A stretch of DNA of 64,000 nt from Candidatus Saccharibacteria bacterium oral taxon 488 (lineage in GTDB: Bacteria > Patescibacteriota > Saccharimonadia > Saccharimonadales > Saccharimonadaceae): NCBI GenBank assembly GCA_010202645.1, contig CP047920.1, positions 124,001-188,000 on the forward strand, read 5' to 3'. Each line of letters begins with the position of its first letter. The first letter of the stretch is position 1. The notes beneath the pieces were generated by a model that saw only the letters and a list, made by a program, of their open reading frames with translations, was not told the origin of the DNA and did no database searches. Made by a program: the position numbers and the translations under genes. Shown in pieces: positions 20,948 through 56,246 of the stretch.

Positions 20948-21024
20948 GGGCGATTAGCTCAGCTGGTTAGAGCGCGTCACTGATAATGACGAGGTCGGAG
21001 GTTCAAGTCCCTCATCGCCCACCA
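20948..21024 (+). tRNA. tRNA-Ile (GAT)
   Basis: GGGCGAT pairs with ATCGCCC; the anticodon loop CTGATAA reads GAT; the T-loop is TTCAAGT; CCA is encoded. It is a predicted ligand for the T-box leader upstream of ileS at 51097. Confidence 0.96.
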
Positions 21025-51061: not shown

Positions 51062-51090
51062 TTGGGATTTTGGTAAAAACGCGCTACAAT
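51062..51090 (+). promoter_or_regulatory. promoter of the T-box operon
   Basis: TTGGGA (51062-51067), 17-base spacer, TACAAT (51085-51090). The -10 lies in the loop of an AAAAACGC/GCGTTTTT hairpin (about 51075-51107) that looks like the terminator of the LiaF-like gene, so terminator and promoter are interleaved. Confidence 0.6.
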
Positions 51091-51096
51091 GAAAGT

Positions 51097-51390
51097 AGGG
51101 CGTTTTTGCGTGTGCCTGATGGAGTATATCTCTGATGGCGCCAATGCAAAATGAGCGGCTATCAACCGCGAAGCCTGCGGGAAGAAATTGGTTTTATCAA
51201 CTGAGACTAGACCCCGCCGTGACTCGCTGCGACAAAGTGACAATTGAGTGCTAAAAGAGTGCGTGGATGCCGGTCAACTCGGCAAAGCCCGCGAAGAATC
51301 ACTTCTTTTGGAATCGAGATGGTACCGTCCGCTTGAAACACCTCCAGCGGATTCTCGAAGTCAGAAGAGGTGATTTTATTTTATATAAGG
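51097..51390 (+). promoter_or_regulatory. T-box leader (tRNA-sensing riboswitch), predicted to bind tRNA-Ile
   Basis: At 51314-51358 the T-box antiterminator is present: TCGAGA, the bulge TGGTACCG (51320-51327), TCCGCT, a loop, then AGCGGA and TCTCGA complementary to the two flanks. A T-rich run (ATTTTATTTTAT) after GAGGTG (51367-51372) can follow a competing stem with CACCTC (51339-51344). A GGAGTA near 51122 suits the 5' side of a specifier loop. The bulge pairs with the uncharged tRNA NCCA end. I could not place the specifier codon; tRNA-Ile is inferred from ileS in the operon below. Confidence 0.75.
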
Positions 51391-51396
51391 AGTAGT

Positions 51397-51927
51397 ATGC
51401 CGATACCAGCCTACAAGTCAGCCTTGCAGCACGCCATTCGCCACGAGTGTGCGGCGCTGTGGCCACTGCTCGAGGCAGCCGCTCCCTGGGCGGATGAGCT
51501 GGTGCTTCCGGGGCAGATAAAAGGCACGATGATGAATCCTCACCAGCTAGCCAGCTACCTACTAGGGTGGGCTACCACGGTGCTAGAGTGGGGCAGTGCA
51601 TATCATCAGACTCATATGGTGCCGACGATTATTACCACTGGCTATGGTGCGGTAGCGCAAAAGTTCTATATGCAATATGCTGATATAGCGTATAGTGCCG
51701 TACTGACAAAGCTTGATGAAGCAGTGGCAGCGATTGACCAACTGATCGAGCAGACATCAGAAGACGACCTCTACCGCGTCGTATGGTATCGGACGAAGAC
51801 GAGTGGACGAGAGTATACCATGGCACGGATAATTGAGCTCAACACAGTCGCGCCATTGCGAAATGCACACGGTAGGTTGCGCAAGGCTATGGAGGAGAGA
51901 GAGGATGAGCATTATACCGCAGGATAA
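51397..51927 (+). CDS. ClbS/DfsB-family four-helix protein
   Basis: The 176-residue protein matches the DUF1706/ClbS layout: PAYKSALQHAIRHE, HQLASYLLGWATTVLEW, KFYMQYADIAYSAVLTKLDEA and the end IIELNTVAPLRNAHGRLRKAM, where the family has a 'NT.SPY.NAR.RIRK' motif. ClbS protects colibactin producers by hydrolysing the cyclopropane warhead; most relatives have unknown roles. ATG 51397 follows AAGGAG. It is the first gene after the T-box leader and overlaps the next gene. Confidence 0.7.
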   Translation: MPIPAYKSALQHAIRHECAALWPLLEAAAPWADELVLPGQIKGTMMNPHQLASYLLGWATTVLEWGSAYHQTHMVPTIITTGYGAVAQKFYMQYADIAYSAVLTKLDEAVAAIDQLIEQTSEDDLYRVVWYRTKTSGREYTMARIIELNTVAPLRNAHGRLRKAMEEREDEHYTAG

Positions 51928-52429
51928 TCGCATTACGAGTTTTGTCATTGATCGGACGCATGATTATATCATGTATGATACGACTGATTTGGTGCGTGCG
52001 ATAGACTTTCCGCGTCAAGTGGCGGGGTTGTTGCTCAAAGATGATGAATTCCATTTGTCGTTATTTGCGGTGCGTGAGGAGTACGGGCTCGATGAGGCTG
52101 GTCATGGGTGGCTGGAACAGGTGTCGTGTCAAGCTGGTGCAGCAATGACTACAGAGCCAGAATTGACCGGTGATTTTCTTAAGCTAAAGGATGACGTGAC
52201 TGGCCGTGAAACGATTATCGCGCTTGTTCGATGGGATGAACTAGAAACTTGGCGTGATGCAATTCGTGAGCTGATCCCGCGGGCAGAGTTTATCATTCCG
52301 CACATAACGCTCTATACAAATCAGAAGGGTGCGCTTGGGTATAGTGATCGGCATAGGGATCGAGTGCGGGTGCTGGATGATGCAGTGATGATGACACTAA
52401 GGAATATATTGTTAAGGAGTAAATCGTGA
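51905..52429 (+). CDS. putative 2H phosphoesterase-like protein
   Basis: The 174-residue protein has two HxS/T motifs about 80 residues apart, FHLSLFAV and PHITLYTN, as in the 2H (LigT/ThpR) phosphoesterase superfamily that acts on cyclic phosphates in RNA. The rest of the fold is not clearly recognised. ATG 51905 follows GAGAGAGG and lies inside the end of the ClbS-like gene; the longer upstream frame is a shadow of it. It is coupled to the next gene by a GTGA overlap. Confidence 0.45.
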   Translation: MSIIPQDNRITSFVIDRTHDYIMYDTTDLVRAIDFPRQVAGLLLKDDEFHLSLFAVREEYGLDEAGHGWLEQVSCQAGAAMTTEPELTGDFLKLKDDVTGRETIIALVRWDELETWRDAIRELIPRAEFIIPHITLYTNQKGALGYSDRHRDRVRVLDDAVMMTLRNILLRSKS

Positions 52430-53220
52430 CCAACCAACAACAAGAATGGCTTGATTTTGCAAAAAGTGTAGCGCACGAAGCGGGCGACATTATGCAAAAA
52501 TATTTTGGTAAAAAACCGGACGCTCATCTCAAGGCGGACAACACAATTGTGACTATTGCTGATGAGGAAATCAACCAGCTTGTGATCAAGCGAGTAGCTG
52601 AGCGATACCCATCCCATGATATTGACGGTGAAGAAGCGAGTGCTCGCCGCGGTTCGGACTATGTGTGGGTATGTGACCCGATTGACGGTACGGCACCTTT
52701 TGCGATGGAGTTACCAGTATCGGTATTCTCGTTAGCGTTGGTGATTAATGGCCAGCCGGAAGTCGGTGTGATTTATGCGCCGTTTAGCGACCATCTGTAC
52801 TGGGCGTCACGTGGTCGTGGCGCGTACATGAATAGCCAGCCGATTCACGTTAGTCAGCATAGTCTGGATGACCGCGTGGAGATGAATGTTGATTGGTGGC
52901 CGAGTGCTCAATGGGATGTGATGCAGGTCGTTCATGATCTTGCTTATGAAAAAGATGTGTATGTAACGACGGTTGGTAGTACAACGCACGCTGCGGCACT
53001 GGTGGCGCGCGGCGAGTTTGTTGCGTCAGTCTTCACTGGTACGAAGGGTAAAAACGTTGACATTGCGGCGGCGAAAGTCATCGTCGAGGAAGCTGGCGGC
53101 AAAGTGACTGACCTTTTTGGCCGGGAGCAGCGGTACGATCAGGATATCTGCGGGGCGGTACTAAGCAATGGAATAATTCATGAGGAGATAGTAAAAGCGA
53201 TGAGGAAACTAATAGAATGA
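52426..53220 (+). CDS. inositol monophosphatase family phosphatase
   Basis: The metal-binding motifs are present: GEEAS (about residue 66), DPIDGTAPF (about 84) and the C-terminal KNVDIAAAKVIVEEAGG, where the common WD is VD. The family hydrolyses inositol phosphates, PAP or histidinol phosphate; the substrate cannot be told from sequence. It starts with GTG in the GTGA overlap. With 264 residues it is full length, and it is 74 bases upstream of ileS. Confidence 0.88.
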   Translation: MTNQQQEWLDFAKSVAHEAGDIMQKYFGKKPDAHLKADNTIVTIADEEINQLVIKRVAERYPSHDIDGEEASARRGSDYVWVCDPIDGTAPFAMELPVSVFSLALVINGQPEVGVIYAPFSDHLYWASRGRGAYMNSQPIHVSQHSLDDRVEMNVDWWPSAQWDVMQVVHDLAYEKDVYVTTVGSTTHAAALVARGEFVASVFTGTKGKNVDIAAAKVIVEEAGGKVTDLFGREQRYDQDICGAVLSNGIIHEEIVKAMRKLIE

Positions 53221-53294
53221 TGAACAGCGAACAGGAAAGTTTGATTAATAATTTAAACAGAGCAGTGAACATAAGGTAGATAAGGAGGAAAAGT

Positions 53295-56246
53295 ATGAAA
53301 TTCAAACACGGAACACGTCGCCGAGCAGCAGAATATGAAAAGGACTGGGTGCAGCGCTGGAAGATTGACGATACGTTTAATAAATCGGTGGAGAATCGGC
53401 CGGTTAATAATTCTTGGGTATTTTATGACGGGCCGCCATTTTTGACTGGCACGCCGCACCACGGGCATTTGTTAGTCAGCACCGTTAAAGATACGATGGG
53501 TCGTTATCATACCATGAAAGGCCAGCGAGTTGAGCGCCGTTGGGGTTGGGATTGTCATGGTTTGCCGGCCGAGGTGTATGTTGAAAAAACGCTTGGCATT
53601 TCTAATAAAAAAGAGATTGGCACGAAGATTAGCGTGTCGGATTATGTCAAGGAATGCCGTGCGGCGATGGTGCGAACCGGTACCGAATGGGAAGATACAA
53701 TTGAGCGAATTGGCCGCTGGGTTGAGTTTAAGGGCGCTTATAAAACCATGGATAACAATTACATGGAATCAGTTTGGTGGGCGTTTAAGAAACTTTACGA
53801 GGAGGGCAAGATTTATGAAGGTGAGAAGATTCTAATTTATTGCACGAAGGATGCTACGCCAATTTCCAAGAGCGAAGTGGCGATGGAAAACAGCTACCAG
53901 ATAGACACCGATCCAAGCTTGTTTGTCTATTTCAAATTAGAAGACGAAGATGAATATTTGCTTGCCTGGACGACGACGCCGTGGACTTTGCCAGCGAATA
54001 TGGTGGTGGCAATCAACCGAGATGTTGACTATTCATTGGTGGCGTATGGCGATAAGAAATTTTATATTGCAAGCGATGCTGTCGAAAGAGTTATGACCGA
54101 TGAAAAACATCAGCCGCTTGAATATTCAATTGTCAAAACGATAAAAGGCTCGGAGCTGGTAGGCAAGCGATTTGAGCCGCTATTTGAGAACCGCGGTCCG
54201 AATGCTCATAAAATTTTGCATGCTGATTTCGTGACGACCGATGACGGTACAGGTCTGGTGCATATTGCGCCAGCTTATGGTGAGGATGACTATGAACTTT
54301 GCCGTAAATATGATGTGCCGATGTTGTCACTAGTGGATGGTGATGGTAACTATACTGAGGGTAGATGGCTCGGTCGTAATATCTGGGAGGTTAATAAAGA
54401 GATTGCTAAGACGCTGCTGGAGGAAGGCCGAGCGCTAAAAATTGACTATATTCGCCACGAATATCCGCATTGTCATCGCTGTGGTACCAAATTGATGTAT
54501 CGGGCACATCCGAGCTGGTTTATGGATATTCAAAGCCAGAAAAAAGAAATGCTAGAGGCAAATGAACAGACTCATTGGACGCCAGATAATCTGCGGACGG
54601 GGCGATTTCATAATATCATAGAGCAGGCGCCGGATTGGAATTTGAGCCGTGATCGCTATTGGGCAACGCCGATTCCAGTGTGGAAAGGTGTCAAGAATGA
54701 CGGCACGGAAGTTGTCAAGGTGATTGGTAGTTTTGCGGAGTTTGAAGAGCTGACGGGGCGTAGGCTGGATGATTATCATTTGCCGCAAGTGATGGACGTG
54801 ACGTTTGAGTGCGATGGTGTGGAAATGCGGCATATCGGTAAGGTGCTCGACTGCTGGTTTGAATCTGGCTCAATGCCGTTCGCCCAGTTCCATTATCCGT
54901 TTGAGAACAAGGAAAAATTTGAAGCAAGTTTTCCGGCTGATTTCATCATTGAAGCGATTGATCAAACACGCGGTTGGTTCTATAGTTTGACAGCGGTCAA
55001 TGTGGCGCTATTCGGTAAGTCGCCGTGGAAAAATTTGATTTGTACCGGGTTCATCAACGCGGCGGACGGCAAAAAGATGAGTAAAAAGCTAAAAAACTAC
55101 ACCGATCCGATGGAGTTGATGGATAAAACGTCGGCTGATAGTTTTCGTTTTCTCATGCTATCTAGTCCGCTGACAAATGGCGAGAACTTTGCACTAGCGG
55201 ATAAGGATGTCATGGATGTGGCGCGCAAGCTCAGTATGATCTGGAATATGTATGATTTCTTCACGATGTACGCGGAAGTTGATGGTTGGGAATTTAATGG
55301 CGATTTGAAAGATCCACTTGGTACGTTGACTAATCCGTTGGATATTTGGATTGTTAGCCGCTTACATCAATTGGTGGCGGATGTTGAAAAGGGTCTTGAT
55401 GGTTACAATTTGCAAGACGCCACTAAGCCGATTTTACCGTTCCTGGACGACGCGTCCAACTGGTACGTGCGCCGTAGCCGCCGCCGCTTCTGGAGATCGT
55501 CGAAAGGGGCCGCGGGCGCTGAGGATGATGGTGACAAGAATGATGCGTACCGCACGCTACACTACGTGCTGGTGCGTCTGAGCTACATTTTGGCGCCATT
55601 TACACCGTTTTTGGCTGAGGAGTTGTATCACAATTTGACGGGTGATAACGAGTCGATTCATCTGAAGGATTGGCTGCCAGCGGGCGAGGTGAATGAGCAG
55701 GCACTGGCCGACATGGCTCGGACGCGTGAATTGATCAACAATGGCCTTAGTTTGCGAATGAAACAGGATGAGCACCAAGCATCAATTAAGGTTCGCCAAC
55801 CGCTGCAATTTGCGGCATATGCGGGTGCGAAATTGGCTGAGTATTACGAGCAGATTATGGCTGAGGAGCTAAATGTTAAGGAGATTCGCTGGATTGAGAA
55901 TCTAGACGAGTATCTGGCTGGTTATGACGTGACCGAGGGCACGATCAAGCCAGAGAATTGGATCGAAATTAGCAAGCACTTAACGCCCGAACTCAAACGC
56001 GAAGGTTTGATGCGTGAAGTTATTCGCCACGTCCAAAGCGCGCGCAAGAAGGCGGGATTGCAAGTGGACGATCGAATTATGCTGCAGCTGACGACGAATG
56101 ACGAGCAACTTCATCAAGCGATTGATGAGCATACTGAGGTGATTGCTGCTGAGACGCTGGCGGTGTTTGGCGAGGTGCATGACAACCAGTCGACAGTGAC
56201 GGTTGAAGGGGCTGAGCTCGAGATTGCTCTTGCTGTTGTAGAATAG
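53295..56246 (+). CDS. ileS: isoleucyl-tRNA synthetase, type 2 (eukaryote-like)
   Basis: The HIGH motif is PHHGH (residues 54-58) in the type 2 context YDGPPFLTGTPHHGH; KMSKS is KMSKK (about 593-597); the editing domain has AWTTTPWTLPAN and GTGLVHIAPAYGEDD; the anticodon-binding domain follows. The 983 residues fit type 2 IleS, the group that includes mupirocin-insensitive enzymes. A zinc-type CHRCG occurs near 397. GGAGG precedes the ATG. It is the last gene of the T-box operon. Confidence 0.95.
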   Translation: MKFKHGTRRRAAEYEKDWVQRWKIDDTFNKSVENRPVNNSWVFYDGPPFLTGTPHHGHLLVSTVKDTMGRYHTMKGQRVERRWGWDCHGLPAEVYVEKTLGISNKKEIGTKISVSDYVKECRAAMVRTGTEWEDTIERIGRWVEFKGAYKTMDNNYMESVWWAFKKLYEEGKIYEGEKILIYCTKDATPISKSEVAMENSYQIDTDPSLFVYFKLEDEDEYLLAWTTTPWTLPANMVVAINRDVDYSLVAYGDKKFYIASDAVERVMTDEKHQPLEYSIVKTIKGSELVGKRFEPLFENRGPNAHKILHADFVTTDDGTGLVHIAPAYGEDDYELCRKYDVPMLSLVDGDGNYTEGRWLGRNIWEVNKEIAKTLLEEGRALKIDYIRHEYPHCHRCGTKLMYRAHPSWFMDIQSQKKEMLEANEQTHWTPDNLRTGRFHNIIEQAPDWNLSRDRYWATPIPVWKGVKNDGTEVVKVIGSFAEFEELTGRRLDDYHLPQVMDVTFECDGVEMRHIGKVLDCWFESGSMPFAQFHYPFENKEKFEASFPADFIIEAIDQTRGWFYSLTAVNVALFGKSPWKNLICTGFINAADGKKMSKKLKNYTDPMELMDKTSADSFRFLMLSSPLTNGENFALADKDVMDVARKLSMIWNMYDFFTMYAEVDGWEFNGDLKDPLGTLTNPLDIWIVSRLHQLVADVEKGLDGYNLQDATKPILPFLDDASNWYVRRSRRRFWRSSKGAAGAEDDGDKNDAYRTLHYVLVRLSYILAPFTPFLAEELYHNLTGDNESIHLKDWLPAGEVNEQALADMARTRELINNGLSLRMKQDEHQASIKVRQPLQFAAYAGAKLAEYYEQIMAEELNVKEIRWIENLDEYLAGYDVTEGTIKPENWIEISKHLTPELKREGLMREVIRHVQSARKKAGLQVDDRIMLQLTTNDEQLHQAIDEHTEVIAAETLAVFGEVHDNQSTVTVEGAELEIALAVVE

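Follow-up and report, generated by a model that had tools for sequence, protein, structure and literature searches.

An ileS T-box leader of Saccharibacteria with a predicted terminator helix that encloses the antiterminator

The leader before the isoleucyl-tRNA synthetase operon studied here looks like a real tRNA-sensing switch. Sequence, folding and alignment identify positions 51097-51400 of the window (the whole 64,000-nucleotide stretch of Candidatus Saccharibacteria bacterium oral taxon 488 that was analysed; the features given below lie on its forward strand) as a full ileS T-box leader. We consider it likely, from conserved and covarying helices, that this riboswitch acts by transcription attenuation in which the terminator competes with Stem III. 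What appears to be new is the expression platform, in which the terminator helix would enclose the antiterminator and reuse the 3′ strand of Stem III, an arrangement predicted in 68 of 76 Saccharibacterial leaders.

The leader and its parts

A consensus scan placed a promoter-like pair, TTGGGA and TACAAT spaced by 17 bases, at 51062-51090 (the 601-base region that was scanned held two sites, one per strand, vs. a mean of 0.4 in shuffles). The leader of a near relative, L013, is preceded by the identical two hexamers at identical spacing, and transcription would start at about 51097. The −10 hexamer sits within a terminator-like hairpin of the upstream LiaF-like gene, read directly in the sequence at 51075-51107; by script, an overlap of this kind occurs in 9 of 69 leaders including L013 but was not found in the window itself, a count that has no chance control.

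The aptamer starts at 51152. Its ultrashort Stem I is the hairpin GCGG-CTATCAA-CCGC (51155-51169), which presents the specifier AUC (51161-51163) in a 7-base loop, and its flanks UGA and GAAG (51152-51173) are as expected for a kink-turn, which may form there. Stem II (51177-51181 with 51213-51217) has covarying pairs and carries the S-turn motif AAGAA/UAGA (51182-51186 and 51208-51211), present in 67 of 69 leaders. Sequence and alignment then place the Stem IIA/B region at 51218-51250 with the RRRxG string (GAGUG, 51246-51250) at its end, and the pseudoknot pairs of IIB are formed in 41-98% of 44 leaders (L005, L022 and L076 dropped) with little covariation. Stem III (51251-51258 with 51304-51311), which has a hairpin inserted in its loop, was placed by alignment and is followed by AA at 51312-51313, found in 47 of 47 aligned leaders. 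The purine string of the RRRxG-Stem III-AA motif, as defined in the part of PMC7583486 that was available, is conserved in 46-47 of these 47.

The antiterminator occupies 51314-51358 and consists of A1 (51314-51319 with 51353-51358), the bulge UGGUACC (TGGTACC in DNA, 51320-51326) and A2 (51327-51333 with 51346-51352), with a G-U pair at the foot of A2 as in 28 of the 47 aligned leaders. Folding, covariation and strand energies all support a 17-bp terminator helix around it (51295-51311 with 51361-51377), adjoined by the T-rich run UUUUAUUUU (51374-51382), and the Shine-Dalgarno AAGGAG of the first gene (51387-51392) lies outside this terminator. The minimum-energy fold of 51240-51380 (−54 kcal/mol, z = −5.2 vs. 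200 shuffles) is one long hairpin in which the two strands of the enclosing helix are paired, A1, bulge and A2 stay intact at the tip and the T-rich run follows directly. A simple terminator scan did not report the enclosing helix because it allows loops of 3-8 only.

A preliminary description of this DNA had named the 17-base-spaced promoter and the T-box antiterminator, and both were borne out. It had also named a T-rich run downstream, which is present, but reading it as a plain downstream terminator does not hold, since the terminator helix encloses the antiterminator. The aptamer from 51152 onwards (Stem I, Stem II, IIA/B and RRRxG-Stem III-AA) and the 17-bp enclosing helix were absent from that description.

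Occurrence in relatives and agreement with the synthetase

A scan with the IleS of the window, from which the best 80 of 585 loci were retained, yielded a T-box motif upstream of ileS in all 78 assessable loci (75 Saccharibacterial and 3 other); two loci, L031 and L073, begin inside ileS and are not among the 78. The 75 loci that we call Saccharibacterial are mostly labelled Saccharibacteria or Saccharimonadia, others just 'bacterium' or Patescibacteria, and they are separated, in a rapidly built, midpoint-rooted ileS tree of 78 rows with SH-aLRT support only, from L078-L080, which are labelled Micavibrio, Patescibacteria and Moraniibacteriota. Within the best 80 of 585 loci, the motif GATGGNACC precedes ileS in 69, and the same leader with UGGUAAC or UGGUAUC does so in L015, L042, L044, L048, L055 and L071; the ACC of the bulge is changed in 6 of the 75 Saccharibacterial loci. 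The leaders of L078-L080 carry GGUGGUACC before ileS. Alignment A1 comprises 47 of the 70 motif-bearing leaders (69 loci plus the window), with 23 omitted, including less regular ones; L021 is without upstream sequence. A leader at about 5790-5960 of L056 is without a recognisable Stem II and keeps Stem I, Stem III, the T-box and the nested terminator; it is either an assembly error or a degenerate switch.

On this evidence an ileS T-box is not exceptional in Saccharibacteria, and the suggestion in the preliminary description that it is untypical of the group is not borne out, given the 75 of 75 assessable Saccharibacterial loci (among the best 80 of 585) that have one. That tally is also the outcome of the comparison of leaders before ileS which the description had proposed. 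Its isoleucine specificity is supported by the AUC specifier and by the motif before ileS in relatives.

Another check that it had proposed, a covariance search with the Rfam T-box model (RF00230), gave no match in the window at the gathering score and none at E ≤ 10 in 701 bases. None of 10 relatives' loci passed the gathering score. When whole genomes of relatives were searched, all eight gave matches at E ≤ 1 and none scored over 93 bits. By position, the matches in G001, G004 and G005 are the ileS leader and those in G006-G008 are the known leaders of L078-L080, while those in G002 and G003 are a different leader, before thrS, with the ileS leader there not among the matches. Thus, of the five Saccharibacterial genomes, RF00230 picks up the ileS leader weakly in three and fails to find it in two; the gathering score is itself a cut-off and no feature of structure. 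The reading of the T-box as a false lead, from the missing Rfam match in the window, was rejected on the strength of the leaders in relatives. In each of the other Patescibacteria G006, G007 and G008, RF00230 gave three to five matches at E ≤ 1 that all fell short of the cut-off, and T-boxes for further amino acids may therefore exist in these genomes.

We built a model, R1, from alignment A1 with the window leader included. It scored that leader at 140 bits (E = 5e-33), with the next match within the window at E = 7.5, and it found matches in 200 of 294 genomes from the class to which G001 belongs and in 100 of 286 genomes from the phylum of G006, 77 of these 100 being outside the class sample. 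Both genome searches used stricter filters at which weak matches are lost, and their non-matching genomes are not evidence of absence.

The specifier agrees with the gene downstream. AUC lies in the Stem I loop of all 69 full Saccharibacterial leaders (the window and 68 loci), read by script in 68 and by eye in L006, with the hairpins of L006, L007 and L056 placed by hand. Among 40 further Patescibacterial leaders from the phylum sample, 18 have GUC before valS, 16 have AUC before ileS, none is discordant and 6 were left unread, giving agreement between the specifier and the downstream synthetase, identified by signature motifs, in 34 of 34 readable leaders. Because the script looked only for ATC or GTC with a following A, the test bears on the first base; where the loop holds GTCATCA (L139, L161 and L164), ATC was taken. 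In L148, a GUC T-box stands before a frame that is presumably NAD(P)HX-dehydratase-like, with a valS signature further on.

The presumed ligand in the window is tRNA-Ile(GAT) at 20948-21024, with discriminator A and an encoded CCA, and the UGGU of the leader is complementary to its ACCA end. In the genomes of L025 (UGGA) and L039 (UGGC), a tRNA-Ile matches that of the window at all 77 bases; the fourth T-box pair is therefore not maintained in either, which argues against strict pairing. A search for a clear tRNA-Ile found none for L005, L066, L069 and L072, the other exceptions at the fourth base. Covariation of this base with the tRNA discriminator was considered and rejected, being absent in the two of six exceptions that have a clear tRNA-Ile.

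Terminator, Stem III and mode of control

RNAalifold predicted the enclosing helix unprompted from the 47 aligned leaders, and 31 of 36 pairs in the predicted structure show change on both sides. In the terminator helix, 92.2% of cells are paired, 9 of 10 pairs are changed on both sides and the covariation is 0.58, vs. 0.27 in shuffled and at most 0.24 in slid versions. For Stem III in the same leaders, the values are 91.9% of cells, 9 of 9 pairs and a covariation of 0.318, vs. 0.196 shuffled and at most 0.17 slid. Alignment columns 194-201 are common to both helices, so no base can be in both at once. An overlap of at least four bases was recorded in 60 of 67 script-parsed leaders (of 69), though the script set the start of Stem III wrongly in a few (seen in L018, L026, L033, L036 and L045). 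What the sequences show directly is that the helices exist, are conserved and covary, that Stem III overlaps the terminator and that specifier and gene agree. These findings suggest that the terminator and Stem III are mutually exclusive and that A1/A2 can persist in both states.

Strand energies point in the same direction, with cognate terminator strands in 69 leaders giving −15.2 kcal/mol vs. −8.6 for swapped and −5.5 for shuffled strands. A fixed rule applied to the 76 Saccharibacterial leaders (75 loci and the window) called 68 nested, the window among them, 3 local, 4 ambiguous and 1 without a T-run. The same rule applied to 42 distinct other leaders (43 rows, of which L176 repeats L079) called 20 local, 13 nested, 5 ambiguous, 3 weak and 1 without a T-run. 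An energy threshold of −8 kcal/mol is passed by 70 of 76 real Saccharibacterial leaders and by 195 of 1500 shuffled A/T-rich flanks; in the comparison set, it is passed by 20 of 43 real rows and 244 of 840 shuffled flanks. Since shuffled A/T-rich flanks pass so often, energy alone proves little, and the case for nesting in Saccharibacteria comes from covariation and constant position. Given the 244 of 840 shuffles vs. 20 of 43 real rows, we do not claim nested terminators as a group trait of other Patescibacteria.

According to the available part of PMC7583486, transcriptional T-boxes build the 5′ strand of the terminator from the 3′ strands of A1 and A2. That canonical feature was not found in 68 of the 76 Saccharibacterial leaders. 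The true terminator could nonetheless be a local hairpin made with the 3′ strand of A1/A2, with the enclosing helix secondary, as appears to be the case for most other Patescibacteria (20 of 42 local, 13 of 42 nested) and for a few Saccharibacterial leaders (L064 and L076 local by rule, L022 and L077 by eye). The window itself offers such an alternative, CACCTC (51339-51344) with GAGGTG (51367-51372) at −9.9 kcal/mol. However, CACCT/AGGTG is seen only in the window, L001 and L013, and the nested helix is stronger than the local one by >2 kcal/mol in 68 of 76 Saccharibacterial leaders and has strong covariation, which makes the canonical arrangement improbable here. On the ileS tree, nested leaders occur throughout Saccharibacteria, L022, L064 and L076, canonical-looking by eye, group in a single clade to which L077 does not belong, and a canonical appearance is also seen in L078-L080. 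Two Saccharibacterial genomes also have a T-box-like leader with UGGAACC and an RF00230 match before frames that match thrS over the cut-off (L085:1500-1720 and L087:1470-1660). Their terminators look local by eye, one such leader being in the genome of L025 beside a nested ileS leader, and we counted this against the Saccharibacterial wrap-around model.

With Stem III as the element that competes with the terminator, tRNA binding, the sensing of aminoacylation, termination and the order of events may be inferred as follows. RNA polymerase would start near 51097 and make Stem I, Stem II and IIA/B first, and the AUC loop together with these elements would bind the anticodon of tRNA-Ile(GAU). 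If the tRNA is uncharged, its ACCA end would pair with the UGGU in the bulge, and Stem III, AA, A1 and A2 would close on it as a unit; with Stem III held, the terminator could not form and the operon would be read. If the tRNA is charged or there is none, the emerging 51361-51377 would invade Stem III at the foot that adjoins A1 and pair with 51295-51311, giving a 17-bp helix that encloses A1/A2 and ends at the T-rich run, where transcription would stop. Under this proposal, then, the terminator switches with Stem III and not with A1/A2. The available text of PMC7583486 reports that an antiterminator without Stem III shows no appreciable tRNA binding. Over 62 leaders, blocking the terminator strand gives a fold that is on average 13.2 kcal/mol less stable than the nested state, and such a large preference for the nested state means that the tRNA would have to win kinetically. 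This is harder to reconcile with Saccharibacterial leaders that are without the long Stem I, which in transcriptional T-boxes is said to speed binding (PMC7583486, available part).

The ultrashort aptamer also raises the question of whether the switch acts on translation, with the 3′ part hiding the ribosome-binding site as in Actinobacteria with an ultrashort Stem I. The part of PMC7583486 that was available links a long Stem I to transcription and a short one to most translational T-boxes, and the aptamer described here is of the ultrashort kind tied to translational control. In the energy model, however, the mean unpaired probability of the Shine-Dalgarno over 54 leaders is 0.71 in the free ensemble (0.61 when the 3′ flank is longer) and falls to 0.54 once the terminator strand is blocked. 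Blocking that strand opens the Shine-Dalgarno by >0.2 in 0 of 54 leaders and closes it by >0.2 in 21. The Shine-Dalgarno, which lies beyond the helix and the T-run, is thus not hidden in the OFF fold, making transcription attenuation the likelier mode. A run of at least four T at 25-95 bases after the bulge is present in 75 of 76 leaders, a count for which there is no chance control. By the definition in the rule, each of the 68 nested leaders has a helix that ends at most two bases from the T-run. We therefore regard translational control as unlikely. Very unlikely, in our judgement, is that both exclusive helices are real and the enclosing one is a constitutive attenuator or processing site, with tRNA acting elsewhere or not at all: the much greater stability of the nested state and a tRNA response that is inferred here would allow it, but the conserved UGGU, RRRxG-Stem III-AA, S-turn and specifier-gene agreement would then be hard to explain.

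Attenuation through Stem III sets the leader between known systems. By the anatomy described in the available part of PMC7583486, it resembles the ultrashort-Stem I ileS T-boxes of Actinobacteria (Nocardia farcinica and Mycobacterium tuberculosis; 6UFM, 6UFG) in having a short Stem I with AUC in its terminal loop, an S-turn Stem II, IIA/B, Stem III and UGGN; these are translational, whereas the Saccharibacterial helix is followed by a T-run and the Shine-Dalgarno is not hidden. With canonical transcriptional T-boxes (RF00230; Bacillus subtilis), it shares the specifier, the UGGN antiterminator and a terminator with a U-run. Unlike them, it has a Stem I without the long arm that meets the tRNA elbow and a terminator that is built with the 3′ strand of Stem III and surrounds A1/A2. 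The class II T-boxes of TBDB also have a short Stem I, and in the available text of PMC7778990 the class II model was searched in Actinobacteria and in class I hits with a truncated Stem I; no word beginning 'Candidat' occurs in its main text. A literature search over titles and abstracts, with subscription literature mostly outside it, found no T-box named in Saccharibacteria or the Candidate Phyla Radiation, which is not proof of absence.

Set against these partly available sources, we lean towards regarding the Saccharibacterial platform as new in that A1/A2 would be kept in both states, survival of Stem III against a wrap-around terminator would read out the tRNA, an ultrashort aptamer would drive transcription and a Patescibacterial reservoir would lie below the Rfam cut-off. 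If this is true, an essential enzyme in the Candidate Phyla Radiation would be under an amino-acid sensor that is widespread and open to testing, ultrashort T-boxes would be able to control transcription, and tRNA sensing would be uncoupled from the choice of terminator in a novel fashion, Stem III being the element that switches. As Saccharibacteria rely on their hosts for amino acids, a switch on ileS that gauges isoleucine may reflect what the host supplies.

The operon and the site between T-box and ileS

Four genes follow the leader. The first encodes a DUF1706 protein (51397-51927; PF08020, E = 2.9e-23), which we take to be ClbS/DfsB-like. The second (51905-52429) encodes a protein with the motifs HLSL and HITL that is presumably 2H-phosphoesterase-like, an assignment resting on our recognition of two H-x-T/S motifs and without a Pfam or NCBIfam match. 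An inositol monophosphatase family protein (IMPase, 52426-53220; PF00459, E = 9.7e-53) and isoleucyl-tRNA synthetase (ileS, 53295-56246; TIGR00392 over the cut-off) complete the operon. The family matches agree with the order given earlier (ClbS-like, 2H-like, IMPase, ileS), the 2H-like member by its motifs. The three enzymes would respond to isoleucine starvation only if no internal promoter or terminator interferes. An internal forward promoter-like site at 51804-51833 is at chance level. Terminator-like sites within the operon number 3 vs. 1.0 expected, and the two on the forward strand (52008-52027 and 52755-52767) have poor T tails.

In the nearest relatives, L013 and L001, the T-box motif lies 106 and 94 bases before ileS, and the genes for DUF1706, the 2H-like protein and IMPase therefore seem to have been inserted locally. 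A search for DUF1706 in 121 genomes of the family gave one weak match of 22% identity. Unrelated small enzymes turn up repeatedly in the gap between T-box and ileS (L012, L075, L025, L055, L071 and others), where at least one frame of ≥50 codons occurs in 27 of 75 Saccharibacterial loci (from the best 80 of 585). From 25 of these 27 loci (L027 and L038 left out), 27 gap proteins were scanned, of which 17 have a Pfam match at E ≤ 0.001 and 10 have none, several of the latter being short. GNAT proteins occur in four loci (L012, L015, L069 and L072), 3-methyladenine glycosylase and cupin in three each (two of the cupins below the curated cut-off), GDSL and NUDIX in two each, and SDR, RibD_C and ArsC in one each. 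In the window, the last bases of the IMPase gene are shared with a possible 20-codon frame at 53216-53278, directly upstream of ileS.
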